A program made the position numbers and the translations under genes. From assembly GCF_003351405.1 (NCBI RefSeq), contig NZ_CP031240.1, forward strand, positions 992,001 through 1,056,000: a DNA stretch of 64,000 nt, written 5' to 3'. The notes beneath the pieces are model-generated. The model worked only from the letters and a program-made list of their open reading frames with translations, was not told the DNA's origin and did no database searches. Positions 32,016 to 52,488 of the stretch are shown piece after piece (position 1 is the first letter of the stretch; each line of letters opens with the position of its first letter). This DNA is from Haemophilus haemolyticus (GTDB taxonomy: Bacteria > Pseudomonadota > Gammaproteobacteria > Enterobacterales > Pasteurellaceae).

Positions 32016-33548
32016 ATGGACAATTCCGCCAAAAAATTTCCACCTATTCAAGGTGGCGCGCTGATTTTATTAACACTAGCTTTATCTCTCGCCACCTTTA
32101 TGCAAGTATTAGATTCTACCATTGCAAATGTGGCGATTCCTACTATAGCGGGCGATCTTGGTGCATCTTTTAGCCAAGGAACGTGGGTAATTACTTCTTT
32201 TGGTGTGGCAAATGCGATTTCTATTCCAATAACAGGTTGGTTAGCAAAACGTTTTGGCGAAGTGCGGTTATTTTTAGTTTCAACTTTTTTATTTGTTGTC
32301 TCTTCTTGGCTTTGTGGGATTGCAGATAGTCTTGAAGCATTAATTATTTTTCGCGTCATTCAAGGTGCTGTCGCAGGCCCAGTGATTCCTCTTTCGCAAA
32401 GTTTATTATTAAATAATTACCCGCCAGAAAAACGTGGAATGGCATTGGCATTTTGGTCAATGACTATTGTGGTTGCGCCTATTTTTGGTCCAATTTTAGG
32501 CGGATGGATTAGTGATAATATCCACTGGGGATGGATCTTCTTTATCAATGTTCCGATTGGTTTATTAGTTGTGCTAATCAGCTGGAAGATTTTGGGGAAC
32601 CGAGAAAGTGAAATTATTCATCAACCTATTGATAAAGTCGGTTTAGTTTTACTTGTCTTAGGCGTGGGATGTTTGCAATTAATGCTTGATCAGGGACGTG
32701 AGCAAGATTGGTTTAATTCTAATGAAATCATTATATTAGCTGTTGTTGCTGTTGTTTGTCTGATTGCTTTGGTTATTTGGGAATTGACAGATGATAATCC
32801 TGTAGTAGATATTTCGCTTTTCTATTCTCGTAATTTTAGCGTAGGGTGTTTATGTACCAGTTTAGCCTTTTTGATTTATTTAGGTTCTGTGGTATTAATT
32901 CCGCTCTTGCTACAACAAGTCTTCCATTACACCGCGACGTGGGCTGGGCTTGCGGCTTCCCCAGTTGGATTATTCCCAATTTTGCTTTCACCGATTATTG
33001 GGCGTTTCGGTTATAAGATCGATATGCGAGTTTTAGTGACGATAAGTTTTATTGTATATGCAATAACATTTTATTGGCGAGCGGTGACTTTCGAGCCATC
33101 AATGACTTTTGCTGATGTGGCTTTACCACAATTAGTGCAAGGTTTAGCGGTAGCCTGTTTCTTTATGCCACTTACCACGATAACCTTGTCTGGTTTACCT
33201 GCGCATAAAATGGCTTCTGCGTCTAGCTTATTTAACTTCTTGAGAACTTTAGCGGGTTCTGTAGGGACATCTTTAACTACATTTATGTGGTATAACCGTG
33301 AAGCTGTTCACCATACTCAATTAACAGAATACATTAATCCTTATAACCCAATTTCCCAAAGTTTTTACCATCAAATGAATCAATTTGGTTTAAGTGATAC
33401 CCAAACTTCAGCTTACCTCGCTCAACAAATAACATCGCAAGGATTTATTATTGGTGCAAATGAAATATTTTGGTTATCAGCTATGGGATTCTTAGGATTG
33501 TTTATTGTGATTTGGTTTGCAAAACCACCTTTTGGGGGCAGACATTAG
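32016..33548 (+). CDS. emrB: multidrug efflux MFS transporter EmrB (14 TM)
   Basis: 510 aa DHA2-type drug:H+ antiporter. Motif C-like and motif A-like segments are visible: TFMQVLDSTIANVAIPTIAG (TM1, motif D1) and GWLAKRFGEVRLF (motif A). About 14 membrane helices. It pairs with EmrA. It is the last core gene before the restriction island, whose left inverted repeat starts 49 bp after the stop. Confidence 0.95.
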   Translation: MDNSAKKFPPIQGGALILLTLALSLATFMQVLDSTIANVAIPTIAGDLGASFSQGTWVITSFGVANAISIPITGWLAKRFGEVRLFLVSTFLFVVSSWLCGIADSLEALIIFRVIQGAVAGPVIPLSQSLLLNNYPPEKRGMALAFWSMTIVVAPIFGPILGGWISDNIHWGWIFFINVPIGLLVVLISWKILGNRESEIIHQPIDKVGLVLLVLGVGCLQLMLDQGREQDWFNSNEIIILAVVAVVCLIALVIWELTDDNPVVDISLFYSRNFSVGCLCTSLAFLIYLGSVVLIPLLLQQVFHYTATWAGLAASPVGLFPILLSPIIGRFGYKIDMRVLVTISFIVYAITFYWRAVTFEPSMTFADVALPQLVQGLAVACFFMPLTTITLSGLPAHKMASASSLFNFLRTLAGSVGTSLTTFMWYNREAVHHTQLTEYINPYNPISQSFYHQMNQFGLSDTQTSAYLAQQITSQGFIIGANEIFWLSAMGFLGLFIVIWFAKPPFGGRH

Positions 33549-33597
33549 TAGCGTATTTCAGATATAAAAGAGCGGTCAAAAATATGATGATTTTTCG

Positions 33598-33620
33598 GTA
33601 TTATGTAGTAGTTGCACAAA
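33598..33620 (+). repeat. left terminal inverted repeat of the restriction island
   Basis: It reads GTATTATGTAG, one variable base, then AGTTGCACAAA. The same 23 bases occur inverted at 38965-38987 with only the middle base changed. TGATTTTT occurs just outside both ends (33588-33595 and 38990-38997) as a possible target duplication. Confidence 0.75.
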
Positions 33621-33655
33621 ACCTGAGATTCAATCTTAACTGAAGTAAAATTTCC

Positions 33656-33691
33656 AATGCCCTTATCTTTAAAAACAGGATTAAGGGCATT
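33656..33691 (+). terminator. terminator-like hairpin downstream of emrB
   Basis: AATGCCCTTA pairs with TAAGGGCATT across a 16-base loop, followed by TCTTAT. It could end emrAB transcription. It lies inside the island's left repeat, so it may belong to the element. Confidence 0.5.
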
Positions 33692-34047
33692 TCTTATATC
33701 TTATTTTAGCTGATTTCTCGAGGTATTACACAAAATTTCCTTACCGCAGACGTAACTAATCCGCTCAATCTTGTAAAAGGTAAGTAACCTTTCCTGATAC
33801 GAATCAGAATGTTATTTTGCGATTAAAAGTTAAGCTGAACTAAGTGGCTTATCCCTTTAGGGCTGATGGCGACATTTTTGCGATTTTATGTCATAATTCA
33901 AATAATTTTTTATTTTTAAAGTGGATTTTAAAATGTCCTTGACATTAACCATTATTAACAACGATATTGCGTTGCGTATTCAGCGTAAATCTTCACTGCT
34001 CTTAGTGCAAGCGCCCTTTTCAATAAAATGCATAGGAGTGAAATTCT

Positions 34048-35169
34048 ATGCAATCTAATCAAATTTCCCTGTTTGATGCTCAAACCAAACCTAAAATTCT
34101 TTCTCTTTTTTCAGGCTGTGGCGGTCTAGATCTTGGCTTTCATCAAGCTGGATTTGAAACCGTTTGGGCGAACGACTTTTCCCATTGGGCTTGTGAAAGT
34201 TTCCGTAAAAATATTGGCGATGTGATTGTGGAGGGCGATATTGAGCAAATCGATCCGAACGATCCTACCATTCCCGATTGTGACATTATTCTTGGTGGTT
34301 TTCCGTGTCAAGATTTCTCAATGATTTGGAAACAACCTGGCTTAGACGGCGAGCGTGGCAATCTTTACAAGAGCTTTTTACGCTTTGTAAACGCTAAAAA
34401 GCCCAAAGTTTTTGTGGCAGAAAACGTGAAAGGTTTGCTCACGGCAAACAAGAAAAAAGCTATTCAGCAGATAATTACCGATTTTGAAAGCTGCGGTTAC
34501 TACGTTCAGGCGAAATTGTATAACTTTGCTGAATTTGGCGTGCCACAATTTCGTGAACGAGTGCTGATTGTCGGTGTGCGTTTAGATACTGGCTTTGATT
34601 TTCACCACCCACAGCCCACCCATAATGCAAGCGGTGAAAATGGGCTGAAACCTTACGTTACCGCAGGTCAAGCTGTTTCTAATATTCCAAGTGATGCGAT
34701 GAATAATGAACTGATGAAAATCAGCGACAAAACTCGTCAAATGCTGTCGCTTATTCGAGAAGGTGGCAATTTTACCGATATTCCCAAAGATCACCCATTA
34801 TATGTGAAAGGAATGATTAGCCATGTTTATCGCCGAATGCACCGAGATGAACCCTCTAAAACTATTATTGCGGCTGGCGGTGGTGGTACTTGGGGTTATC
34901 ACTTCCCTGAACCTCGAGCTTTTACCAACCGTGAACGAGCAAGATTACAAAGTTTTCCTGACGATTTTGAATTTATCGGTTCAACCACTGAAGTACGTCG
35001 TCAAATTGGTAATGCTGTACCACCGCAAGGTGTGGTAGAGCTTGCAAAGGCGATTTTACCGATTTTTTCGGGCAATTATAAAAAAGTGGATTTATACAAA
35101 AAATTGGAAGCCGAAAAAGCCGAAGTTTTCCAAGATCGTTTAAATAAAATTCGTGGAGGAAAACGATGA
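34048..35169 (+). CDS. DNA (cytosine-5-) methyltransferase of a restriction-modification system
   Basis: 373 aa. C5 motifs in order: I ([19 protein letters not shown], from residue 18), IV with catalytic Cys ([10 protein letters not shown], near 89-98), VI (VAENVKGL), VIII ([12 protein letters not shown]) and X ([13 protein letters not shown], near 321-333). The target-recognition segment between VIII and IX is about 90 residues; I cannot read its specificity. It protects host DNA from the nuclease encoded next, which starts 4 bp before its stop. No uptake sequence lies in the gene, as expected for imported DNA. Confidence 0.93.
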
Positions 35170-36203
35170 ACACCGTTTTTTCTAATATCGCTCAAGCTGA
35201 AATTACAGATCGTTCGCTCAATAAAGTTTGGATGGACTTATTTAAGTCTGCTGATGAAGTCACTATGGCGACTGGTTATGTTTCTAATGATGCGATTAAA
35301 GAATTGCATAAAATCATTGAGCATAATCCTAAATTAAGAAAACTGGATCTTTTAGTTGGAATGCACTATTTGGAAGGTTTTACTCGTCCACAATATGACA
35401 GCCTTTGTGAGCTTAATCAATTCTTGCAAGAAGAAAAACGTGGCTCTGTTTTCATTTCTCCCTTTGTTAAATTCCACGGAAAAATGTATTCCTTTAAAAA
35501 CGGAAAACAAATTGACAGCTTAATTGGTTCAGCAAATTTAACTTGTTTTTGGGATAGTACAGAACGTACTTATGAAACAATGCTTCATTTAAATGGAAAT
35601 GAGGCATTAAGTCTGCAAACGGATATTCAAAGCACAATTACTAAGCTAGGAAAACCTATTAGCGAAGTTGAAACGCCAAATAACTTTAAAGAACATAATA
35701 GCCATTTAGAAAATTGCTTGGGTGTAAGCAAAGTTAACGCAGCTGATGTAGCACTATTATTTATGCAAACATCAATTTATAAATTTGATATTCAGGCTAA
35801 AACCGAAAAAAGCAGTAATCTAAATGTTTTCTTTGGAAAAGGGCGAGAAGATCAGCGAGGCTTTATCAAGCCAAGACCTTGGTATGAAGTAGAGATTATC
35901 GTTTCAAAATATATTACAAAGCAACATGGCTATCCGTACCATAAATCATTTACTGTAATTACTGATGACGGTTGGAAATTTAAATGTAAAACATCAGGAG
36001 ATTACTCTAAAAACTTTCGTTCTGAAAATGATCTCAAAACATTAGGGAAATGGATCAAAGGCAGATTAGAAAGTACCAACTGTTTGAAAACAGGTGAAAT
36101 GATTACCGAAGAAACTCTACGTAAATACGGTAATGATAAATTTGAATTTCGTTCAACGGATAATCCTGATGTTTGGTTGCTTTCGTTTAAGGGGAAAAAC
36201 TAA
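35166..36203 (+). CDS. PLD-family (NgoFVII/BfiI-like) type II restriction endonuclease
   Basis: 345 aa. A single phospholipase-D-type active site is visible: H104 and K106 in FHGKMYS, then GSANLT (S122, N124). PLD nucleases such as BfiI carry one such motif per subunit and use it as a dimer, without metal. The C-terminal half (from about 195) fits the B3-like DNA-binding domain of NgoFVII-type enzymes ([10 protein letters not shown]...[14 protein letters not shown]). ATGA-type overlap with the methyltransferase and 0-bp spacing to the Z1 ATPase make one operon. Family assignment is by motif. Confidence 0.85.
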
Positions 36204-38096
36204 ATGCTGAAAACTTATTTAAATAAACTTACACCACCTGAGTTAGCGGATTCTGTAAAAAATACCGTTTCAGGATTTATGGATAAATTGGCCCAAATTG
36301 AGCTGAAAAAAGTTCAAAATGTTTTGTTACTAGGTAATGTGCAAAGTGGTAAAACCGCCCAAGTTTTAGGTGTATTAAGTGCATTAGCAGATGATGGCGA
36401 TCATAAAGTTTTTCTCTATCTCACTACGGATAGTGTTGATTTACAACAGCAAACGGTAAAACGAGCCAAAACCAGTTTGGATAGATTTATTGTTTTATCA
36501 GAAGATGATGACAAAAGTTTTACTCAAGTAATGAAAGCTGATAATCCAATTTTGGTGGTTATTAAAAAAAATGCTAGTGTGTTAAAACGTTGGCGGAATT
36601 TATTTAAAAGCCAAGAAAATTTGAAAGGCTATCCGCTGGTTATTGTGGACGACGAAGCCGATGCGGCAAGTTTAAATACTAATGCAAATAAACAGGATAA
36701 AGATGCTAGTACAATCAATAAACTATTGAATGAAATCAAAAATAGCTGTTGCCAAAGTTTATTTATTCAATTAACCGCTACTCCACAGTCTTTATTATTA
36801 CAACACCAAGAATCTGAGTGGCAACCCGAATTTATCCATTTTTTTGAAGCAGGTGAAAAATATATTGGTGGCAATTTTGTTTTTTCTGATCCACCGAACA
36901 AACTTATTTTCCGTCCGATTGACAGTGAGCTAGATGAAATTAAAGATGATAGCGGAGAAATTCCCGAAGGTGTAACACGAGCTTTGCAAAGTTTTTTATT
37001 AACTTGTGCAGAATTTGATTTATGTAGAAAAACAAATTGCAATTTTGCCTTGCACCCAAGTTATAAAATTCAAGATCACACCGCCTTTGCTGATAAAATT
37101 CAGGCTTGTTTAAATGATCTCGTACAAGCAGTGAATAATGATGAAAATTTTGCAAATAGTTTTAAAGAAAGCTACCAAGATTTGCAGCAAACCAAACCAG
37201 ATATTCATCACTTTGAAGAAATCTACGAAAACCTGACTGCACTTTTGCAAGATAAAAGAATCAGTGTTGTTGTACTAAACTCTAAGACTGAAGCTGATTT
37301 TGATTTAGAAAAAGGATTTAATATCGTAATTGGCGGTAATGTGATTGGACGTGGCTTAACTATTCCAAAATTACAGACAGTTTATTACAGTCGTACAGCG
37401 AAAAAGCCGAATGCTGATACCTTTTGGCAACATTCTCGCATTTTTGGTTATGATCGTGATATATCTCTATTAAGGCTTTATATGCCTATGGATGTATATA
37501 AATTTTTTGTATCGCTTAATCAAGCAAATAATTTAATTATTGAACAAGCTAAACAATTAAACGGAAATGTACAAATTATTTATCCGAAAAATATCAACCC
37601 AACTCGTAAAAATGTGTTGAAATCAGATGCAGTCAATCAACTAGTTGGTGGTGTAAATTATTTTCCATTTAAGCCAAATGAAAAAAATTTATCCCAGATC
37701 AATGGATTACTACCTACTATTGAGCAAAATCCAATTAAGGAGGATTTATATCAAATTGACAATGAAACCTTATTTTTAATTTTAGAAAATCTAGGTAATT
37801 ATCAATCTGATGATTGGGATAAAGAAAAATTTGTCACCAGTATTCAAGCCTTACAAACTCAACGACCAAGTTTTAAAAATTATGTTTTAATCAAAAAGGG
37901 AAGAAAAATTGGTAGAGCCACCGGCACAATGCTTTCCGAAGATGACCGTAAATTGGGTGATAAATACCCAAATGATTTGTTTTTAACACTTTATCTTGTT
38001 GTTGGTGATGAAAATAAAGGTTGGAAAGGCGAAGATTTTTGGCTGCCTAATATTAAATTACCGCATAAAGGTTTAGTTTATTGGGGATTGAAATAA
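36204..38096 (+). CDS. Z1-domain superfamily-2 ATPase of the restriction operon
   Basis: 630 aa. Helicase-like motifs: Walker A GNVQSGKT (44-51), Walker B/II DDEAD (149-153), III TATP (191-194), V GGNVIGRGLTIPKLQ and VI FWQHSRIFGY. The GRGLTIP and QHSRIFGY blocks are hallmarks of the Z1 domain, found in operons with C5 methyltransferases and diverse nucleases. Its role is not established; translocation or licensing of the nuclease is inference. It starts directly after the endonuclease stop and ends at a strong terminator. Confidence 0.85.
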   Translation: MLKTYLNKLTPPELADSVKNTVSGFMDKLAQIELKKVQNVLLLGNVQSGKTAQVLGVLSALADDGDHKVFLYLTTDSVDLQQQTVKRAKTSLDRFIVLSEDDDKSFTQVMKADNPILVVIKKNASVLKRWRNLFKSQENLKGYPLVIVDDEADAASLNTNANKQDKDASTINKLLNEIKNSCCQSLFIQLTATPQSLLLQHQESEWQPEFIHFFEAGEKYIGGNFVFSDPPNKLIFRPIDSELDEIKDDSGEIPEGVTRALQSFLLTCAEFDLCRKTNCNFALHPSYKIQDHTAFADKIQACLNDLVQAVNNDENFANSFKESYQDLQQTKPDIHHFEEIYENLTALLQDKRISVVVLNSKTEADFDLEKGFNIVIGGNVIGRGLTIPKLQTVYYSRTAKKPNADTFWQHSRIFGYDRDISLLRLYMPMDVYKFFVSLNQANNLIIEQAKQLNGNVQIIYPKNINPTRKNVLKSDAVNQLVGGVNYFPFKPNEKNLSQINGLLPTIEQNPIKEDLYQIDNETLFLILENLGNYQSDDWDKEKFVTSIQALQTQRPSFKNYVLIKKGRKIGRATGTMLSEDDRKLGDKYPNDLFLTLYLVVGDENKGWKGEDFWLPNIKLPHKGLVYWGLK

Positions 38097-38102
38097 CACT
38101 AC

Positions 38103-38134
38103 GCCATCTGAGTTCAAATTCAGATGGCATTTTA
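38103..38134. terminator. terminator after the Z1 gene
   Basis: GCCATCTGA pairs with TCAGATGGC, followed by ATTTTAC. It lies between the rightward Z1 gene and the leftward repressor relic. Confidence 0.85.
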
Positions 38135-38139
38135 CTATA

Positions 38140-38479
38140 TTAAGCATTATCTATTTTTGAGATTTCCTTAAAAGAAATCGCAAATGCTTCTTTGAGGTTT
38201 TCAGGCATAGCACGATAGTGTGCAATAAGTTTTTCTTCTTACTTAGACATATAGCTTTCTTGGGTGATGGTTTGAAACATCGCACCATTACCTGTTAGCA
38301 ACCAAGTAATTCTGATCTCTAATGCCTCATGGATTTTTACCAATCCTTCAACGTTTGGGTCACGCCCTTCATTCAAGTAATTCATCGCAGAACGATAAGA
38401 AATGATTGTGAGTTCTGAAAATTCTTTTATCGATATTCCTTTTACTTCTAAAATCTGCTTTAGTCGGTTTGCTATGCAT
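38140..38479 (-). pseudogene. decayed phage CI-type (HTH) repressor gene
   Basis: A good ribosome binding site (CAGGGGAGA) precedes an ATG at 38479, but that frame drifts. The neighbouring frame reads IANRLKQILEVKGISIKEFS, then ELTIISYRSAMNYLNEGRDP and WLLTGNGAMF, which looks like a phage CI-repressor HTH. So a +1/-1 shift lies near the start. A TAA at 38241-38239 then interrupts ...SYMSK, and the same frame continues with EEKLIAHYRAMPENLKEAFA to a second TAA at 38140-38142. Two lesions indicate decay, not phase variation. Confidence 0.65.
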
Positions 38480-38572
38480 TCTCCCCTGCGTTGGGAAAAT
38501 CAAGAAAAAGTTGTCTGTCCGAAGTGTAATATACAAACGCTTACAAAATTGCAACAGCTGCAAGCATTGCAA

Positions 38573-38901
38573 CTACACCTTTAGTGTGCTATGCATTCGA
38601 GGCAAATCGTTATCAATAGCTGGTTATCTAATTTCAATGCTTGAAGGTTGATTTCATTCGTATGAAAGTATTTTTCAGGTTGCTTTTTAAGGATATGCGC
38701 CACTAATTGGCGTGGTGATGATTGAAAACGGACATTACGAGATTTCTTACTTAATGAAAAATCTGAATCTCTTGCGTGATTTAGCGCAGTTTGATAGTCT
38801 AAAACTATCTGATTTAATCCCTTTACTTTTTCTTCAAATTCAGCTCGTTCTTGTTCTGCAAGAGAAAGTTATTCAATCAATAATTTTTCTAATGCATTCA
38901 T
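38573..38901 (-). pseudogene. decayed small helical protein gene, phage/island type
   Basis: AAAGG precedes an ATG at 38901 reading MNALEKLLIE then a stop (38871-38869). The same frame continues with LSLAEQERAEFEEKVKGLNQ and KSRNVRFQSSPRQLVAHILK to about 38600. There a single-base loss shifts it, and the neighbouring frame ends NDLPRMHSTLKV-stop. The original product would be about 109 aa, coiled-coil at the N-terminus, of unknown function. It sits divergently behind the repressor relic's far side at the right end of the island. Confidence 0.55.
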
Positions 38902-38964
38902 TTTTTTCTTACCTTTAAATTACAACGAAGTAAGAAAAATGTAGCAGAAACATTTAGTTAAATC

Positions 38965-38987
38965 TTTGTGCAACTGCTACATAATAC
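38965..38987 (-). repeat. right terminal inverted repeat of the restriction island
   Basis: Read on the minus strand it is GTATTATGTAG, C, AGTTGCACAAA, matching the left repeat in 22 of 23 positions. Its inner part also pairs with ATGTAGCAG at 38939-38947, making a local hairpin. Confidence 0.75.
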
Positions 38988-39028
38988 TGTGATTTTTGGC
39001 CTCTCTTGTTTATATGATTTTAATTCAA

Positions 39029-41158
<2,130 letters not shown>

Positions 41159-44178: not shown

Positions 44179-44209
44179 AAAGTGCGGTGAATTTTCACCG
44201 CACTTTTAC
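44179..44209. terminator. bidirectional terminator, paired uptake sequences
   Basis: AAAGTGCGGTGAA-TT-TTCACCGCACTTTTACC between the convergent cysK and the HEPN gene. Confidence 0.92.
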
Positions 44210-44307
44210 CTAGACCAAAGGAGTTCAATCTGAATGATATCAGATTGGTGAGAATTATAGCGAACTAGATTGCAAGGTTGGTTCGCAAATTACATTAAGA
44301 AATAAAT

Positions 44308-44964
44308 TTATTTTACAACAGGATAGAAAGGTTTTCCCCAACTTGGCTCTGAATCATTACGCAACATAATTTTTACCATTGCAGGTACGAATAATGACAG
44401 TAATGCACAGGCTTCTTCTAGCTGTTTACGGTTGGTACTACTTTCATAAGTAGCTCCGCCATGTATAAGCTGATTTCTCAATGTGTATAAATGCCCAAAT
44501 ACCACTTCCAATACTTCTGCTGTTTTCTGTTCTTCAAAAGCAAAATGGGCTTTTTTCTTCGCTGCAGAAAACATTGCTTTCCATTCTTTCCCTGCTAATA
44601 GACCATTATGAGCATCCCAAAATGGTTGGAATGTATAAGGCGTATCTAGTAGAGCTTTCACTGTCCCAGGAAATTCATCCCAGATAATTCCATAAAGTAG
44701 ATGTTCAGAATCCAATTCACAAAGGCGAGTAATAAATTGATGAAATACCTTACGTTCAATTTCTTTTTTACTTAACTCATCGGCATAGGCTGCATTAAAG
44801 GCAATCCAAAGTGCGATAAATTTGAAGTCTAAATTTTCTTCTTCATTGGCTTTTTTCAACCAGCTTAATGTACGGTGCATTTTTAAGCGAAAGTTATCGT
44901 TAAAGGTATCACGATTTTCTTTGTAATAATTGGTTAAATCTTCAAGTTGTTTTGTCAGTGACAT
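44308..44964 (-). CDS. HEPN-motif protein, unknown function
   Basis: 218 aa from the ATG at 44964 (MSLTKQLEDLTNYYKENRD); an earlier in-frame start adds 8 residues. It is helical, with a C-terminal RNQLIH (R163, H168) fitting the Rx4-6H motif of HEPN ribonucleases, followed by GGATYESSTNRKQL. Many HEPN proteins of this shape sit in defence loci, but others are housekeeping, and nuclease activity is inference. It has its own likely promoter and is split from the GTPase operon by a terminator. Confidence 0.7.
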   Translation of the reverse strand: MSLTKQLEDLTNYYKENRDTFNDNFRLKMHRTLSWLKKANEEENLDFKFIALWIAFNAAYADELSKKEIERKVFHQFITRLCELDSEHLLYGIIWDEFPGTVKALLDTPYTFQPFWDAHNGLLAGKEWKAMFSAAKKKAHFAFEEQKTAEVLEVVFGHLYTLRNQLIHGGATYESSTNRKQLEEACALLSLFVPAMVKIMLRNDSEPSWGKPFYPVVK

Positions 44965-44999
44965 AATGGGCTCCGATATAATCAACATAGAGTTATTAT

Positions 45000-45029
45000 T
45001 GTATAGATTAATTTGTTTGTAAATTTCAA
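45000..45029 (-). promoter_or_regulatory. candidate sigma-70 promoter of the HEPN gene
   Basis: Minus strand TTGAAA, an 18-bp spacer, then TATACA, about 35 bp before the start codon. Confidence 0.5.
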
Positions 45030-45065
45030 AAGAAAACCCATTGGGTGGTTCAATGGGTTTCTTGT
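45029..45065 (-). terminator. terminator after the third GTPase gene
   Basis: Minus strand AAACCCATTG pairs with the following CAATGGGTTT around a short loop (one bulged base) and leads into TCTTTT. It separates the GTPase operon from the HEPN gene. Confidence 0.75.
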
Positions 45066-45103
45066 TTCTTAGTACATACTAGTTTAACCAAGGAAATAAC
45101 TTT

Positions 45104-46828
45104 TTATTTGTTCATTTTTCGTTTGATACTTTCTAATGATGATAAGAATCTCTGAATATTAGAATGGAAAGACTCATTTTCATTTATTTCTATTTCCTTA
45201 TTTTCCTTATTTAATAAAATATGTTTAGGAAATATCATCTCTAATGCATTATTAAATTTCTCCATCACAGATTTTAATTTTAATAAGTGTGATTCTTGAG
45301 AGCTGATATCAAAATATTTCATTAACTCATCAACTTTATCTTCATCATCATTTCTCCAGTTTGAAGCTAAAGATTGTCTAATAGTAAAAAGTTTATCCTT
45401 AATTTTTTTATTCTTTTTAATATCTGCCTGTATTGCTTTTTTATACATTACATTCACGGAATCCAGTGATTCATAGATTTCTTGAATACGGTTAATTTCA
45501 AGATCTTGCTCTATAAAAAATGCTTTTAATGATTTTCTAAAATAAGAATATTCTTTTTTCATTTTGGAACTATATGCAGAAATGCCTTGATATTCAATAC
45601 CATAATTATCAAGTTCAGTAGCAATTTCTTCCATAATATCTTCTACATCAGATAAAGGTCTTTGATCGCATTTGTTTAATACGACATAAAGTGTTTTTTT
45701 CTCTGAAGTTGCTTCATCTAAAAACTCTAAATCACTTTGTGGAATGGTGCCTGCAGTTACAGGAATAAGCCATATTAATGCCCCAGCTTCTTTAATAAAG
45801 TTATCAGCAGTCTCTCTATCTTCATTTGTATGCGATTGTTCTGATGATGACGGGTTATATCCTGGGGTATCTACAAAACATATATGTTTATAACTGAGTT
45901 TATTTGTCAGTACCATATAAGGCATAATATCTTTCAAATTAAATCCGAAAGATCTAATAAAGTCATGAGATAGTTTTTTATAAATATTAGGTTCTATTTT
46001 TAGCAAATCTATCATTTCTCCTTTTGGACTCGCACCTAATAATCCCACGTTATCACTATTCATTACATAAGTTGGAATTGCAGTTGTTGGTTTAATACCT
46101 ACAGGTAACTTAACTGAATCATTTTCAAATAAACTACTAATAAACTCTGATTTACCCGCACTAAAACCACCTCCAACTGCAACAACTTTTTTATTATAAA
46201 ACTCAGGATATGAGCTAATACTTCTTAATTCTTTGCCTATTCTTTGTAATTTTAATAATGCTAAAGCTTCTTCTTTTAATGAAGATTCTTCATTAGCAAA
46301 TTCCATAAAATCATTTTCTAAAATAGATTCATATTCTCTTACACCTTCGTGAATATAATTAGCTTTCAATAAATGTGCGATAAGATTATTCTTGAAATAT
46401 AACTCTTCATAATTTTGATTTAATTTTATATGTTTTTCATTAAGTGTTTTTAAATCAGATTCTAATTTATCCTTATTTTGAATAGAGTTATCATAATCTT
46501 GACTTAACTGAGAATATTTTGAATTAAGAGCGACTAAATCAGATTGTAATTTATCGCCACGCTGAACAGATTTATCATAATCTTGCTTTAACTGGGAATG
46601 TGTGGCATTAAGATCAGTTAAATTTGATTGTAACTCCTCGCCTTCCTTGACTGAGTTTATATAATTTTCAGTTGTTTCTCTCAGGTTATTTTCTAATGTT
46701 GATAAAGTTATTTCTAACTCATCTAATGATTTTTCTATCGATAAAACTAAAGTTTTCTTTTTAAATATAAAACTTAGTCTTGATTTATCTTGAATAGTAT
46801 TTCTTATTACTAATAGCTGCTCACGCAT
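45104..46828 (-). CDS. dynamin-like GTPase 3 with 28-residue coiled-coil repeats
   Basis: 574 aa from the ATG at 46828 (MREQLLVIRN); 13 earlier in-frame codons are less likely. Residues 30-150 are coiled coil built from about three 28-residue repeats (YDKSVQRGDKL...YSQLSQD; YDNSIQNKDKL...). The GTPase domain follows: G1 GGGFSAGKS (219-227), switch-I Thr in KPTT (248-249), G3 DTPG (320-323), G4 NKCD (385-388). The rest is helical. The size is that of bacterial LeoA-type dynamins. It is third in the operon, 69 bp after GTPase 2. Confidence 0.85.
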   Translation of the reverse strand: MREQLLVIRNTIQDKSRLSFIFKKKTLVLSIEKSLDELEITLSTLENNLRETTENYINSVKEGEELQSNLTDLNATHSQLKQDYDKSVQRGDKLQSDLVALNSKYSQLSQDYDNSIQNKDKLESDLKTLNEKHIKLNQNYEELYFKNNLIAHLLKANYIHEGVREYESILENDFMEFANEESSLKEEALALLKLQRIGKELRSISSYPEFYNKKVVAVGGGFSAGKSEFISSLFENDSVKLPVGIKPTTAIPTYVMNSDNVGLLGASPKGEMIDLLKIEPNIYKKLSHDFIRSFGFNLKDIMPYMVLTNKLSYKHICFVDTPGYNPSSSEQSHTNEDRETADNFIKEAGALIWLIPVTAGTIPQSDLEFLDEATSEKKTLYVVLNKCDQRPLSDVEDIMEEIATELDNYGIEYQGISAYSSKMKKEYSYFRKSLKAFFIEQDLEINRIQEIYESLDSVNVMYKKAIQADIKKNKKIKDKLFTIRQSLASNWRNDDEDKVDELMKYFDISSQESHLLKLKSVMEKFNNALEMIFPKHILLNKENKEIEINENESFHSNIQRFLSSLESIKRKMNK

Positions 46829-46897
46829 TTTTTCACCTTTAATGATATTAAAAATGTATGGAGTCAAATCAATTCACACCATACATATTGTTTTATG

Positions 46898-49129
46898 TTA
46901 ATTAATTACAATTTCAGATTTTAATTTTTTAACTTCACAATTAATAGAATTATAAAGCTTAGTATTGACTTCAATATCATTTAAATCAGATAAGGTTTTA
47001 TTTAAACGACGTGTTAGATCTGTAGTAAGCCTGTTTCCAAGTCTTTGATTGATAAGTGTCTTTCTATAATTCTCTACATAATTAGTAATCATATTACTAA
47101 CAGATTTTTGTAGATTATTCATATATTCTTCTGATTTACGGATAAAAGAATTTCCATCACTTTCATCAAGCGTAACTCGACGCTCAAAGTCACTTGGCTT
47201 AGCATCAAGTTTAAACATCATTTCTGGTAACTTAGAAATAGATTTATTTAATAATTCCTCGATTACTCGTTGTTTTGGTAAATACTGTTTTACTTCAGCG
47301 TTAGTATTCAGTTTACCATATAGACGACTCCCAACAACATCAACTACACTATCTTGCCAACCAGATTTAATAGAGCTTGCAAGATAGGAAAGTTGTTCTT
47401 CAATTCTTTCTCGAATTTCATCAATAGCGTCGCAAATTGGAGCTGTTCTTACCACCTTAACAATTTTTGTTCTGGAACGTTCAACATCTTCATAAGAATA
47501 GCCACCTAACCCAATCTTTCTAGCTCCCCAAGATAATAGACCGGGTTTTTCACGTCTAACGCTTTCAGTATAGTATTCAGTTTTGGTTTCCGTTGTTCTT
47601 CCCTCATCAGAGTCAAAGCCTTTAAAAATATCTCTATTTTTATTACTTAATGCTTCTTCAAGTTGTGAAGAAAAATCTTCAACAGAATGCGTAAAGGTTT
47701 CATTAACGTTATTTTCAATATCTTTTGATATTCTCTCTAGCATTGCTTTTCTACGTAAAAGCTGTTCTTCATTCGCAGAATCTAATTCTGAAAGTTGTAT
47801 TTCAGTCCATTTTTCAATGGCAGAAAGATAATTTCTTAATTGATGTTTATATTTATCGTTAAATGTTCTATCCGCTTTATCTAGGGTTGCTTGTTTATTT
47901 TGATTAATGGTATCAATTATTTGATTAATCTTTGTTTTTCCAGTAAGTGCGGCTAATACTTCTTTCGCTTTTGCAGATGAATTAAATATGCTTGGGAAGC
48001 TATCAGAAAGGTTATACCAAACAGTTTGTCCTAATTCATCCCATTTATTTTTTTCATCAAAATATTGTAAAAGGGTAAAAGCAATACTTGAAGAACCCAC
48101 AAACTCGTTAAATTTTACATTTCTTTGATTTAATACTTCGTGTGCTCTTTCTTTAAGAGAACTTGTTACTTGTTCAATTAATAATAAAGGATCGCTAATA
48201 CTTTCAGAAACAGCAGATTCAATTAAGGTATCATCAAATCGACTACCAATTAAATAACATTCTTGTACACCGCTCGCAGTCATTGCTCCTTCAATAAAGT
48301 TACAGTCACTCTCATCTAAAAACTGTGATGTAGGTGAAACAGTTAATACCACATTACAATTTTTTAAGAATTGATTTGTACGCTCTTCGCGAGATTTTAC
48401 AGGATCGTTCACTCCCGGTGTGTCAATAATCTCAATCCCTTTTAATCCTTCTTCTGGTAAATATAAAATGACAGATTTAGTATAAGGCATATATTTACCA
48501 TCAGCTCCAACATAGTGTTGTAATTCACTCATTAAAGCATCAGGTGTATTGGCTTCTAGTTGTGTAACTTGTGGCATTTCTCCAGATTTGTTAAGCAGAA
48601 TAGCTTGCTCATAAGCACCGAGATAAAAATGATCTTTTAATTCTTTTTCGGCGTTTTTTTCTGCTCTTCTTAGAATTTCGTTATCATCCAATACTTTACG
48701 AGCTGCTTTATTTCTTTCTTTTAATGTAGAAATTTGATCTTGAATTTCTTTTTTTAAAAAGTCCTCATATTTCTTTGCATTTTGTTTAATTTCTGAGATG
48801 TCTTCTGGCGTAAAACAATCAATCTCAGCTCGACAGGTTTCCCCATAACGTAAACAAGTCAATGCGGCAGTCATTGGTGTTGCTGCTTTTGGTAGAACAT
48901 CTCGTCCACCGAAAAATAGCATATTCAATAATGAGCTTTTACCAGCTTTTACGCGACCAATTACACCAATTTTTAAAATACGCTCTTGCTTAATCTCTTT
49001 ATTGTGCGCCGTTAGCTCCTTTTCTAGCTTACGGCTATCTGTATAATTTGGATTTACATCACTTTCTTCATCAATTTTATAAAGTTTACTGAAGCTTTCT
49101 ACACGTTTCGTAAAGTCTAAAATATCCAT
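46898..49129 (-). CDS. dynamin-like GTPase 2 (743 aa)
   Basis: G1 is GRVKAGKSS (58-66), switch-I Thr84 is in KAATPMTAAL and G3 is DTPG (236-239). The G4 position reads GSRFDD (295-300), not NKxD, so guanine specificity may be relaxed. A long insertion lies between switch I and G3 (about 105-225). The C-terminal 350 residues are helical stalk-like sequence, with a basic patch near 525-560. The closest familiar shape is a CrfC/YjdA-like dynamin-superfamily protein. It starts 13 bp after GTPase 1. Confidence 0.85.
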   Translation of the reverse strand: MDILDFTKRVESFSKLYKIDEESDVNPNYTDSRKLEKELTAHNKEIKQERILKIGVIGRVKAGKSSLLNMLFFGGRDVLPKAATPMTAALTCLRYGETCRAEIDCFTPEDISEIKQNAKKYEDFLKKEIQDQISTLKERNKAARKVLDDNEILRRAEKNAEKELKDHFYLGAYEQAILLNKSGEMPQVTQLEANTPDALMSELQHYVGADGKYMPYTKSVILYLPEEGLKGIEIIDTPGVNDPVKSREERTNQFLKNCNVVLTVSPTSQFLDESDCNFIEGAMTASGVQECYLIGSRFDDTLIESAVSESISDPLLLIEQVTSSLKERAHEVLNQRNVKFNEFVGSSSIAFTLLQYFDEKNKWDELGQTVWYNLSDSFPSIFNSSAKAKEVLAALTGKTKINQIIDTINQNKQATLDKADRTFNDKYKHQLRNYLSAIEKWTEIQLSELDSANEEQLLRRKAMLERISKDIENNVNETFTHSVEDFSSQLEEALSNKNRDIFKGFDSDEGRTTETKTEYYTESVRREKPGLLSWGARKIGLGGYSYEDVERSRTKIVKVVRTAPICDAIDEIRERIEEQLSYLASSIKSGWQDSVVDVVGSRLYGKLNTNAEVKQYLPKQRVIEELLNKSISKLPEMMFKLDAKPSDFERRVTLDESDGNSFIRKSEEYMNNLQKSVSNMITNYVENYRKTLINQRLGNRLTTDLTRRLNKTLSDLNDIEVNTKLYNSINCEVKKLKSEIVIN

Positions 49130-49142
49130 ATTGTCTCCTCAA

Positions 49143-50942
49143 TTATAAATAGTTTTTCATTACTTGCTTTAATGAACTAATCGCAGATTTTAATTTACTA
49201 ATTTCAAGCTCTTGATCTTTAACATTACCTTTCTCTTGTGATGCACGATCAATTTCTTGAATTTTATCTTTAATCTCTTGATCAAAAATTATTTTAATTT
49301 GTGCGATTAATTGATTTTTAAAACCATTTAACATTTGTGGTAGTTGTTCTTCAATGCTACTCGCAACTTTAGGTATAATGCTTTCTTCAAATGCTCTTTC
49401 AAGTGCATCTTGCTGTTTCATTTCTTGGATTCGTCTTGTTGAACCATCATCTGAACTACCAAAAATATCAGTAATAAAACTTGGTAAAAGTGAAACAACA
49501 GCTTGAGCAATAGGGTTTTTAGTCAATAATGATGTGATTATTTTTAAAATTATACCAATTACATCATTATTACTTTGGCTATCTTCTTTGACATTGGTAT
49601 CAATATTTCTAATATCCAATAAGGTTTGATTCATTTTTCTGTTAATATCTGCTTTCAAACGTAATAATGATTCATTATTCAAACTCATTTGACTTGCATT
49701 TCTAGCTGACATTTCTTGTAAAATGCCAGCAAATTGCTCAGTTAATTCAGTGCTTAGTCTTTCTAAATAGCTTTTTACACTGCTGCTTAATGTATTTTGA
49801 ATCAAACTACCAACTTCCTCAGAAAACTGAAATTGATTACGTTCTAGTGTTTTAAGTAAACGTGCTTTATTTGTTCTTAATTCTGTTTTAATACGTTCAA
49901 TAATTAGATTAACACCGTCAAATCGGCGAGATTCAAGGGAGTTCATTTCTCTTGCTTGCTTTTCTTCAAGGCGTTCTTTTTGACGCTCAAGTTTGTCTTT
50001 TGCAGATTTAATTTCTTCCTCAGTTTCTTGTAAAACTGAAATATTTGAATTTAATGTTTCTATAAATTTTCTACCTTGAGAATGTAATCCATCTGAAAAA
50101 ATATTCTCAATTAATTTATCTTTATCAATATTATCTAAGATATGTTGTAATGCATCAGTATTTTTCACACTTGATACATAGATTTCATTTCCATAATCTA
50201 AATCATTCAATGTATCAGTAATATTTTCACGTACTTCTTCAATAATATCTTCTGAACGTGTATCTGCCTTTGTTAGACAGAATGTAAATTCTTTTTCTGT
50301 TTGTAATATTTTTTCAGCTTCTTGAATGATATCTCCAGTGATCTCTCCAGATCCTACTGGGTGGAGTATAACAAAATGAACACCACGGCGAATATATAGA
50401 TCAATAGCTTTATTATGTCTGTTGTTTGCCGAACCAAATCCAGGCATATCAGCTAGAATGAAAGGTTCGAGTTCTTTTAATTTTTTATTATTTGAATATA
50501 ACTTAATATAGCTATAATCAAGTTCATCATTTTGATTACCGCTTTCAGCAACAAATTTATCTAATTCAGATAAATTAACTTGAGTTCTTTCAATTATAAA
50601 ATCTGGATTATTATCATCTAATTTGATTAATTCAGCATATTCTTTCCCTTCTGTATAACGTAGTTCTGTAGCTAACTTTGTAACTGGCTCTTGCCCAGTA
50701 GGAAGAATACCTTTTCTTTTTTCTTTTTTATGATTTGGATCAAGAAAATAATTAATTAATGTGCTTTTACCGGCACTAAATCCACCCACGATAGGAATAA
50801 TCATTTCTAAATGATTAATGTCGTTACTGTACTTATCTAATACAGCTATCTCTTCTACTTTAGTTTCATTATTTAAACTTAAAGGTTCAATAATTTCTTT
50901 TGCTTGTTGAATGTAATTAAGTAAATTTTCCTTTGTTGTCAT
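49143..50942 (-). CDS. dynamin-like GTPase 1 with a hydrophobic paddle-like segment
   Basis: 599 aa. G1 is GGFSAGKS (53-60), switch-I Thr is in ILPTGQEPVT, G3 is DMPG (165-168) and G4 is TKAD (224-227). A coiled coil (about 303-340) is followed by a helical stalk. Residues 461-495 form a strongly hydrophobic stretch (VIGIILKIITSLL, AVVSLLPSFI) that could insert into membrane, as in bacterial dynamins. It starts 16 bp after the WYL gene, so it should be under its transcript. It is distinct in sequence from the two GTPases behind it. Confidence 0.87.
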   Translation of the reverse strand: MTTKENLLNYIQQAKEIIEPLSLNNETKVEEIAVLDKYSNDINHLEMIIPIVGGFSAGKSTLINYFLDPNHKKEKRKGILPTGQEPVTKLATELRYTEGKEYAELIKLDDNNPDFIIERTQVNLSELDKFVAESGNQNDELDYSYIKLYSNNKKLKELEPFILADMPGFGSANNRHNKAIDLYIRRGVHFVILHPVGSGEITGDIIQEAEKILQTEKEFTFCLTKADTRSEDIIEEVRENITDTLNDLDYGNEIYVSSVKNTDALQHILDNIDKDKLIENIFSDGLHSQGRKFIETLNSNISVLQETEEEIKSAKDKLERQKERLEEKQAREMNSLESRRFDGVNLIIERIKTELRTNKARLLKTLERNQFQFSEEVGSLIQNTLSSSVKSYLERLSTELTEQFAGILQEMSARNASQMSLNNESLLRLKADINRKMNQTLLDIRNIDTNVKEDSQSNNDVIGIILKIITSLLTKNPIAQAVVSLLPSFITDIFGSSDDGSTRRIQEMKQQDALERAFEESIIPKVASSIEEQLPQMLNGFKNQLIAQIKIIFDQEIKDKIQEIDRASQEKGNVKDQELEISKLKSAISSLKQVMKNYL

Positions 50943-50958
50943 TTTTTACCTCAATTAA

Positions 50959-51852
50959 TTATTTATAGTTTGAAATATAATTTTGTAAATTAGAAAGCAT
51001 TTTATTTTGTAACTCATTTTGGCTCACAATCACCAAATGTGGAATCCAATATTGCACCAAGGGAATAATTTCTAATTCGTGAATGTTTTTGCAAGAGAGC
51101 AGAAGTTCACCATTTTCTAATTTTCGGATGGTTTCTTGGTTTGGTAGTAAATTACGTCGAGTGAAATAATGGGCAACGGAAGCATCTACTTTGATTACAA
51201 CTTCACTAATTTGATTGCCGTGAGAAATGCTGTCGCTTTTTTGAATTTCTGAGAGAAATTGTTCATCAGGTTTGAATGTTTTATCTGTTATTTTTAAAAA
51301 ATGGATTTGAGTGAAGCAAAAGGTTTTTTGTTTTCCATTTTCAAGACCGATGAGATACCAAACCCCATTTTTATTTAATAACACATAAGGCTCAACTTCA
51401 CGATTTGAAGCATTTTGAGTGCCGAGTTTTTGATAGGTAAATTGCACCACGCAATGTTTTTCAATGGCATTTTGAAGTTGTTTAAATTCTTGTTGGCGAT
51501 GCTGAATCGCTTCGTAATGTAATCCTTTAACGGCAATACTTTCATTTAAACTATGTTGAAAAAATTCACGATCTATTTTAGGGAAAAGATCTTGCACACT
51601 AGCGAAATGGGCAAATCGTTCAATATCTTCTTTAGTGAACACACCGAGTTGGGCGCGGTTTAAACGATAAAAGCGCGGTCCATTTTGTTCCCAATTTAAA
51701 AAAACAAGACGTTCATTTAGATCTTTTTGTAAGGTGCGAATGCCGATAGAAAAGCGATCAGCTAATTCATTAATATCAATCTGCCCTGTGGTATTCAATT
51801 CCACCAAAATAGAAGCTAAACGTTCCGCTAGTTTTTCGTGTTTGTTCGACAT
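50959..51852 (-). CDS. WYL-domain transcriptional regulator (BrxR/CapW-like)
   Basis: 297 aa from the ATG at 51852 (MSNKHEKLAERL); the frame is open 106 codons further upstream but that part overlaps the divergent XRE gene. Residues 5-55 are a winged HTH (GQIDINELADRFSIGIRTLQKDL). A WYL domain (about 130-200: VEPYVLLNKNGVWYLIGLENGKQ) and a WCX-like C-terminus follow. WYL regulators of this layout repress defence operons and are thought to sense nucleic-acid ligands. As first gene of the GTPase operon it probably autoregulates it. Confidence 0.88.
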   Translation of the reverse strand: MSNKHEKLAERLASILVELNTTGQIDINELADRFSIGIRTLQKDLNERLVFLNWEQNGPRFYRLNRAQLGVFTKEDIERFAHFASVQDLFPKIDREFFQHSLNESIAVKGLHYEAIQHRQQEFKQLQNAIEKHCVVQFTYQKLGTQNASNREVEPYVLLNKNGVWYLIGLENGKQKTFCFTQIHFLKITDKTFKPDEQFLSEIQKSDSISHGNQISEVVIKVDASVAHYFTRRNLLPNQETIRKLENGELLLSCKNIHELEIIPLVQYWIPHLVIVSQNELQNKMLSNLQNYISNYK

Positions 51853-52006
51853 AGTTATTCTCTTGATTTCAATATATGTGCGTATTTTATGTAAAGTATT
51901 TGCACGGTTGATTCGGGCGAGAAAAATATTTTGTATAAAATCTCGCTTATTGTAAGAATTTAACTCTTTATTGCAAGATTTTAATTCTCTTTTTATTGGG
52001 TGGTGA

Positions 52007-52387
52007 ATGTCTATACTCGTTCCATTCAAAAAATGGAATAAAGAAAATGGCGTGAAAGATAAAGTTGAGATAAATAAACAAGTGGGAGCTTCTATTGCAA
52101 AATATCGGAAAGCCTCAGGTTTATCACAAGCAAAAGTGGCAGAAATATTGGGATTAAGCAATGATGCCATTTCTAGAATGGAGCGCGGCAGGATTGGATT
52201 AAATGTAGAGCGTTTATGTGAATTTGCAACACTGTTTCAATGCCGTGTGTCTGATTTAATCACAGATAGTAGTTTGCAACCATCGGATCAAATTTATCAA
52301 CTTGATCGATTATTAAATCAATTAGATGATATGGAAAGAAGAAAATTAATTTTATTGATTGAACAAATGATCGAATGGAAAAATTAG
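52007..52387 (+). CDS. XRE-family HTH regulator
   Basis: 126 aa. The HTH is near residues 25-80 (VGASIAKYRKASGLSQAKVA, EILGLSNDAISRMERGRIGL), followed by a short helical tail (DQIYQLDRLLNQLDDMERRKLILLIEQ). It is divergent from the WYL regulator with 154 bp between the starts, so both could act on the shared control region. No target is known. Confidence 0.85.
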   Translation: MSILVPFKKWNKENGVKDKVEINKQVGASIAKYRKASGLSQAKVAEILGLSNDAISRMERGRIGLNVERLCEFATLFQCRVSDLITDSSLQPSDQIYQLDRLLNQLDDMERRKLILLIEQMIEWKN

Positions 52388-52488
52388 CTACAGAAAATTA
52401 GGTTTGATTATCCTGTTGATAACTGTCTAACTTTTGGGGCTAGTCGTTTCCACCGCACTTTTATATATTGAGTATAAGTAAAGAAGAA

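Follow-up and report, generated by a model that had tools for sequence, protein, structure and literature searches.

In this study, a stretch of 64,000 nucleotides from Haemophilus haemolyticus (the window, to which all positions refer) was analyzed for a cluster formed by a WYL-domain regulator and three dynamin-family GTPases, here called D1, D2, and D3. The results suggested that WYL-D1-D2-D3 is probably a three-dynamin defence module, carried as the cargo of an exchangeable XRE/WYL...HEPN cassette that entered the gap between cysK and sodA. The three GTPases (the trio) are a conserved co-inherited unit, and the cassette has fixed ends and variable cargo. The genes of the locus are given below, with lengths in amino acids (aa).

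50959-51852, minus strand: WYL-domain regulator, 297 aa from ATG, first gene of the operon (PF13280, 3e-14; PADLOC WYL, 2.6e-24)
49143-50942, minus strand: D1, a 599-aa GTPase, bacterial-dynamin-like by its model (Dynamin_N, 49 bits)
46898-49129, minus strand: D2, a 743-aa dynamin-family GTPase (Dynamin_N, 77 bits, 2.8e-21), kin of BDLP and Cj-DLP1 as judged by sequence
45104-46828, minus strand: D3, a 574-aa GTPase, dynamin-family by its model, from an ATG behind AAAGGTG (Dynamin_N, 45 bits)
44308-44988, minus strand: HEPN-type protein with an RNxxxH motif, 226-aa open reading frame (ORF), whose start may be internal, for example at ATG 44964
52007-52387, plus strand: divergent XRE regulator (HTH_3; Pfam)

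The ORFs agreed with the initial annotation, which described a WYL gene and three large GTPase genes (599, 743, and 574 aa) on one strand, with a divergent XRE gene upstream. The intergenic gaps calculated from the ORF coordinates were 16 base pairs (bp) between WYL and D1, 13 bp between D1 and D2, and 69 bp between D2 and D3, as described. The extent proposed there, 44989-52387, covered the operon content but omitted the HEPN gene, which is the other end of the unit, and with it the cassette.

The cassette was investigated in 121 Pasteurellaceae genomes. The HEPN gene was found in 29 genomes and the WYL gene in 36, with four very weak WYL matches. The two genes lay 0.4–9.4 kilobases (kb) apart in 24 genomes, sharing one strand in all 24, with WYL always the upstream gene. 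Five HEPN-bearing genomes had no nearby WYL gene of this kind. The HEPN gene is the fixed downstream end of the cassette, and the genes between the ends differed. The trio was the cargo in two of the 24 cassettes (the window and L015). The cargo of L151 was Eleos, with LeoA (3e-156, 520 bits) and LeoBC (3e-139, 464 bits), and its WYL gene was broken in two; L150 carried LeoA/LeoBC-like proteins. BnzB (4.5e-137), which we take to belong to the Bunzi system, was found in L143, IetA- and Zorya-like genes in L137, and PADLOC candidate proteins in L138, L147, and L153. By cluster membership, with cluster representatives alone scanned, a dynamin- or IIGP-like GTPase was present in 15 of the 24 cassettes. 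L157 had no gene between the ends, L146 only a 113-aa ORF, and L154 only a 238-aa ORF. An overlap of more than 20 bp with WYL or HEPN excluded a gene from the cargo count, and the ORF of L154 was lost in this way. No description of a WYL...HEPN cassette was found in the literature searched, to which subscription papers mostly did not belong.

The insertion site was compared in nine congeners. The insert of the window is bounded by DNA uptake sequences on both sides.

44180-44205, no strand assigned: left boundary, two DNA uptake sequences (AAGTGCGGT) in inverted orientation after cysK
52452-52460, minus strand: right boundary, a DNA uptake sequence before sodA

In three congeners (L173, L174, and L175), cysK and sodA were about 100 bp apart, which represents the empty site, and the uptake motif stood between them in one full and one imperfect copy. 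At the same site, L137 (genome G044) had WYL and HEPN genes 98% and 95% identical to those of the window, with different cargo between them. In L176–L180, sodA was located away from cysK, which was followed by other genes. The insert of about 8 kb had a G+C content of 30.8%, versus 38.5% in the remainder of the window. The uptake sequence AAGTGCGGT occurred 47 times in the window, including copies at both insert edges, and was absent from 44206-52451. Its absence alone is a weak sign, because a second uptake-free stretch of 8.8 kb exists at 32260-41069, ending at ligA. Taken together, the low G+C content, the lack of uptake sequences, and the empty and alternative sites fit a recent arrival, perhaps by natural transformation. 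A phage origin was rejected, as megablast gave no match of the region in phage records and viral contigs held no confirmed relative of D2.

All three GTPases scored above the Pfam Dynamin_N cut-off of 27 bits. Their separate G1 motifs (GGFSAGKS, GRVKAGKS, and GGGFSAGKS) were the same on re-reading the sequence. That they are not duplicates, as first proposed, was borne out by mutual BLASTP, which aligned stretches of the GTPase domain only (34% over 50 aa, 23% over 226 aa, and 35% over 40 aa). D1, D2, and D3 are three distinct families. In D1, the G1, G2, and G3 motifs and the G4 lysine were invariant or nearly so among 54 sequences, as were the G1, G2, G3, and G4 residues of D3 among 52 sequences. 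The G1, G2, and G3 residues of D2 were likewise invariant or nearly so in an alignment of 10 sequences. A dynamin-type GTPase domain with G1, G2, and G3, as in the BDLP/IniA/mitofusin class, was found in each of the three.

The dynamin fold expected of the trio was seen in the models of D1 and D3, and D2 matched dynamins by sequence. The model of D1 showed a full-length bacterial-dynamin/mitofusin fold, with 548 aa aligned to BDLP, including neck and trunk. The model of D3 showed a dynamin/mitofusin fold with an N-terminal coiled coil, a GTPase domain, and a mini-mitofusin-like (neck-like) helical bundle; no trunk was seen in it. LeoA did not appear among the fold matches, but the list was of limited length and this carries no information. 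Among solved bacterial dynamins, D2 matched BDLP (2j68, 5.8e-11), and the D2 profile matched Cj-DLP1 (5.6e-22). The long coiled coil predicted for one dynamin was located in D3 (helix 18-114). The hydrophobic paddle-like stretch predicted for another corresponds to a hairpin at about 461-494 of D1, which was only moderately hydrophobic and was modeled with low confidence.

As the modeled folds of D1 and D3 are of the same class, the trio might be a membrane-maintenance or vesicle-release machine like LeoA/LeoB and DynA, with a secondary effect on phage. Vesicle release was lowered by about half in leoA and leoB knock-outs, according to PMC4159319, and DynA is described in PMC8844932 as delaying lysis and seeming to support membrane integrity. 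However, the presence of the trio is patchy, with D2 in five of the 121 Pasteurellaceae genomes, which is unlike a housekeeping function. The insert is low in G+C and free of uptake sequences, and in a congener the corresponding site has the same ends around other cargo; these features do not suit a housekeeping function either. A maintenance role is quite unlikely on this evidence.

To describe the trio beyond Pasteurellaceae, a D2 profile scan of one genome per species was used, which gave at least 593 pattern matches and at least 216 confirmed relatives. The best 80 loci were used; they are the closest relatives of D2, and the results are valid for them and not for all D2-like proteins. D1, D2, and D3 were all present in 63 of these 80 loci. 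Of the 17 loci without the full trio, 14 lay so near a contig end that under 6 kb of sequence flanked D2 on one or both sides. Adding the window and nine loci found earlier brought the count of full trios to 73 of 90. Exactly one intact copy of each gene was found in 62 loci, and in all 62 the three genes were on one strand. The gene order was D1-D2-D3 in 37 loci, D1-D3-D2 in 20, and different in five. The common order looked for in the initial annotation was thus found, with two orders covering 57 of 62 loci. Gaps were 100 bp or less in 103 of 124 cases. The distance matrices of the three families gave correlations of 0.855, 0.826, and 0.908, values reached by none of 2000 permutations.

The three genes were close together in four further Pasteurellaceae genomes and several plasmids. 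From the record titles, the hosts of the trio presumably belong to about a dozen phyla, which we take to be represented by Pseudomonadota, Campylobacterota, Spirochaetota, Fusobacteriota, Fibrobacterota, Bacteroidota, Bacillota, Synergistota, Latescibacteria, Victivallales, Deferribacterota, and Acididesulfobacter. In one E. coli plasmid (L014, 10255-12938), D2 was interrupted and an IS3-family transposase was annotated there; the sister plasmids had an intact trio.

The plasmid copies bear on a different function, in which the trio would be an inter-plasmid or anti-conjugation system that alters the envelope against the entry or spread of other mobile elements, with phage not the main target. 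On a Photobacterium plasmid, the trio genes were located in the conjugation region between TraU and TraN. E. coli F-type plasmids also carried trio genes, with near-identical DNA in five of 5426 E. coli genomes and at no chromosomal place, as did Pseudomonas and Calditerrivibrio plasmids. However, phage defence systems are also commonly plasmid-borne, and a plasmid was named in none of the 80 record titles, on which draft contigs are often silent. The Pasteurellaceae cassette frame is moreover common to Eleos, BnzB, and Zorya-like genes. An anti-conjugation function is considered unlikely.

Relatives of the trio carried fusions and accessory genes. An N-terminal patatin-like phospholipase region was found on D1 in six loci (L054, L058, L075, L087, L091, and L093), where D1 was about 1060–1290 aa; the fusion was confirmed by Pfam in L058, the sole one scanned. 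Weak PADLOC matches to phospholipase effectors were obtained for L058 and L148. In the L148 cassette, patatin is encoded by a gene of its own, next to those for a dynamin-like GTPase and a YjcZ-like protein. Pfam showed no patatin domain in D1 of the window.

A 1050-aa HerA/DUF87 ATPase followed D2 in eight loci, from Clostridia and a Synergistaceae bacterium (L061, L063, L064, L066, L067, L071, L072, and L082), as judged by Pfam on L061 only, and five of the eight had the full trio. The HerA of L061 and that of L140, a Pasteurellaceae cassette with a single dynamin, shared 39% identity over 1048 aa. This kinship, together with a weak local match of D1 to CrfC (33.7 bits), would suit dynamins that act as switches on nucleic acid or DNA translocation, working with a HerA-like ATPase on invading DNA. 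Against this, no HerA gene was seen beside the trio of the window in the ORFs or by Pfam, and the patatin fusions point to lipid. Such a role is very improbable. CrfC itself, a clamp-binding GTPase, was rejected as an identification, with 33.7 bits for D1 and 24.8 bits for D2 against a cut-off of 1146.

Other accessory genes were observed near the trio. In loci with the order D1-D3-x-D2 (L058, L067, L071, L088, and others), one or two proteins of about 400 aa (cluster c2) stood between D3 and D2. The cluster of these interval proteins was present in 23 loci, and Pfam and PADLOC were almost blank for the copies scanned. A short D3 (405–434 aa) was followed by an 818–863-aa protein in L012, L073, L074, L080, L081, and L085; this protein is annotated CFI-box-CTERM in E. 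coli plasmids. In L031, L034, and L039 (Fibrobacter kin), several genes of one cluster followed the trio, and the scanned L031 member had a Fib_succ_major domain.

The neighborhood of the trio was compared with controls from the same contigs. A WYL profile of our own matched 13 of 24 trio loci and none of 24 controls; since some of the test loci had gone into building it, the comparison favours the test side. The HEPN gene was found in three of 24 trio loci and in no control (0/24). On a Pseudomonas plasmid, ZorC and ZorD adjoined the trio. For PADLOC families, the nearest 140 of 222 eligible trio neighbors in 24 genomes were compared with 128 proteins taken at random from 360 on the same contigs. 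Test proteins that were shorter than 130 aa, open-ended, or members of the accessory clusters c2, c3, and c6 were left out before the count. WYL matched at most one of the 128 controls. General defence-island enrichment was rejected, as no excess besides WYL was found.

The reading as a three-dynamin defence module is drawn chiefly from three observations: the cassette is common to Eleos, BnzB, and Zorya-like genes, the WYL gene is linked to the trio, and patatin is fused to D1 in relatives. The ZorC and ZorD neighbors on the Pseudomonas plasmid and the HerA-like ATPase, kin of the one in single-dynamin cassettes, also speak for defence. The cassette argument carries the most weight, because the other PADLOC families were unenriched and the evidence is sequence-based. 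The initial annotation proposed a membrane-acting antiphage system with a three-part dynamin complex, induced when the WYL protein binds a phage-derived signal. This was partly supported: three distinct dynamins form one conserved unit, and the context favours defence. The three-part complex, the sensing of a phage signal by the WYL protein, binding to the membrane, and protection from phage are predictions, which weakens the defence reading. Several other observations also weigh against it. PADLOC families except WYL were not enriched near the trio (93 families matched among 140 neighbors versus 103 among 128 controls, E ≤ 1e-15), and no PADLOC (2023) model fits the trio. Of the 90 trio/D2 loci, only 25 gave a WYL gene and 65 did not, and the HEPN gene was not found in 85, many of these loci being cut by contig ends. 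WYL was broken by stops in several cassettes, including the Eleos cassette L151. A partner gene was missing in L053, L086, and L097, although the contig extended 6 kb or more beyond D2 in each direction. In viral contigs, none of the 39 pattern matches to D2 was confirmed as a relative. The Kyte-Doolittle peak of the D1 hairpin (19 residues) was 1.52, close to that of the HEPN protein (1.54) and D3 (1.36).

The WYL protein scored above the cut-off for PF13280 and below the cut-offs for HTH_DeoR, HTH_11, and WCX; its PADLOC WYL score was 84 bits. A helix-turn-helix with a WYL domain upstream of a defence-like operon is the arrangement of BrxR/CapW-kind regulators, and the WYL gene shows it at family level. 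A divergent XRE gene lay less than 600 bp from WYL in 11 of the 24 cassettes, a count in which the window was unscored, its WYL ORF having been read from an earlier start. The WYL gene may be dispensable or recently lost in L139, L151, and L158, because it is split into two reading frames there.

The RNxxxH motif of the HEPN-type protein was present in all 33 relatives and invariant across a 16-sequence alignment. The catalytic motif of HEPN ribonucleases (RNases) is R-x4-6-H, and the product of 44308-44988 contains it. Some homologues are named HEPN domain-containing protein and many are unnamed or hypothetical; PF18735 was precomputed for two among the 120 homologues listed. The protein of the window gave no weighty match in Pfam, PADLOC, or NCBIfam, and a 16-sequence profile gave no match in PDB. 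The motif suggested that the HEPN-type protein is a probable RNase. Standalone HEPN proteins of BREX-type loci are proposed as backup suicidal effectors in PMC12839542.

Three regulatory sites were predicted in the intervals of the locus.

51955-51988, no strand assigned: candidate operator, a 14-nucleotide inverted repeat in the interval that separates WYL from the divergent XRE gene, 86% complementary and AT-rich
45034-45060, no strand assigned: terminator-like stem-loop in the interval from D3 to the HEPN gene, predicted on the plus strand only and weak on the minus strand
44995-45023, minus strand: promoter-like site before the HEPN gene, 10 of 12 consensus positions matched, a consensus match only

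The candidate operator may be due to chance, being AT-rich; it was conserved in L137, where the entire WYL region is near-identical. The terminator noted earlier behind the trio was found as a stem at 45034-45060 on the plus strand, but its minus-strand tail was T-poor. Promoter-like sites were overall rarer than in shuffled sequences (23 versus a mean of 42).

By analogy with CapW and BrxR, as described in PMC9122588 and PMC9122601, the WYL protein would be a repressor that keeps expression of the operon low until infection or stress lifts the repression. D1 and D2 would act as a membrane-binding dynamin pair, and D3, with its coiled coil and no trunk, as an adaptor or sensor. During infection, the GTP-bound trio would assemble on the inner membrane, as dynamins in general and the patatin fusions suggest. 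The inner membrane would be remodeled or breached, and either the phage would fail at DNA entry, replication, or release, or the cell would die early. Where D1 bears a patatin phospholipase, as in some relatives, the attack on the membrane would be chemical. By analogy with DynA, the effect may also be of opposite sign, since a dynamin can also protect by keeping the membrane together. The HEPN RNase, to judge from its motif, would cut RNA as a second layer, perhaps separately transcribed, or serve as a guard of the cassette.

A broader picture, put forward tentatively as a possible one, is of an ancient three-dynamin immune machine in about a dozen phyla, in which GTP would drive three different dynamins to co-assemble on the inner membrane, so that infected cells are killed or walled off. 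Some lineages would have armed it further, either with a patatin lipase or with a HerA motor. The Pasteurellaceae version would be one of many interchangeable cargoes of a standard XRE/WYL...HEPN defence slot, which uptake sequences on either side would allow to move by natural transformation.

A trio of three families kept over great distances, with a lipase fused in some lineages, would offer a handle on heteromeric dynamin action on the membrane during infection, and it would link mitofusin-like machines to immunity. The WYL...HEPN frame holds both known systems (Eleos, BnzB, and Zorya-like) and unknown ones, so a survey of Pasteurellaceae should yield further candidates. A single set of tests on the common regulator and HEPN protein may serve for all cargoes.

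Dynamin-based defence is already known, and the described dynamin defences that were found use one or two dynamins. A three-dynamin system was found neither in PADLOC nor in the literature searched, mostly open papers, which does not show its absence from print; the initial annotation likewise knew of no named three-dynamin WYL system. Eleos (LeoA and LeoBC) is grouped with Dynamins in PMC11811056. Like Eleos, the trio consists of operonic bacterial dynamins, and Eleos fills the same WYL...HEPN frame in L151. Eleos has LeoA and LeoBC, whereas three other families are present here. Membership in Eleos was rejected: the best LeoA score was 22 bits, for D2, versus 520 bits for the LeoA of L151, and neither D1 nor D3 had a listed LeoA match up to E = 0.1. 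NCBIfam LeoA scored 13 bits on D1 against a cut-off of 325, and LeoBC scored 25 bits on the GTPase region of D2 only, versus 464 bits in L151. By these scores, the trio is not an Eleos member, and it may work like Eleos.

The trio also resembles the class of Cj-DLP1/DLP2, BDLP1, IniA, and mitofusin. D1 is a full-length member and D3 is akin to a truncated mitofusin according to their models, and D2 is placed there by its sequence matches. Most bacterial dynamin genes are paired, according to PMC6104087; in contrast to the Cj-DLP class, three families are co-inherited here, one of which shows no trunk. DynA of Bacillus subtilis is reported in PMC8844932 to give phage resistance through delayed lysis. 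The likeness to DynA is one of description; unlike the trio, DynA is a single protein of two fused dynamins (PMC4159319). As in CapW and BrxR systems, the gene right before the defence-like operon encodes a WYL protein, and the promoter region contains an inverted repeat, the candidate operator. CapW-dependent induction was unnecessary for protection, as stated in PMC9122588. The patatin region of six related D1 proteins resembles the patatin-like phospholipase effectors of defence systems, but it is fused to a dynamin and is absent from D1 of the window.

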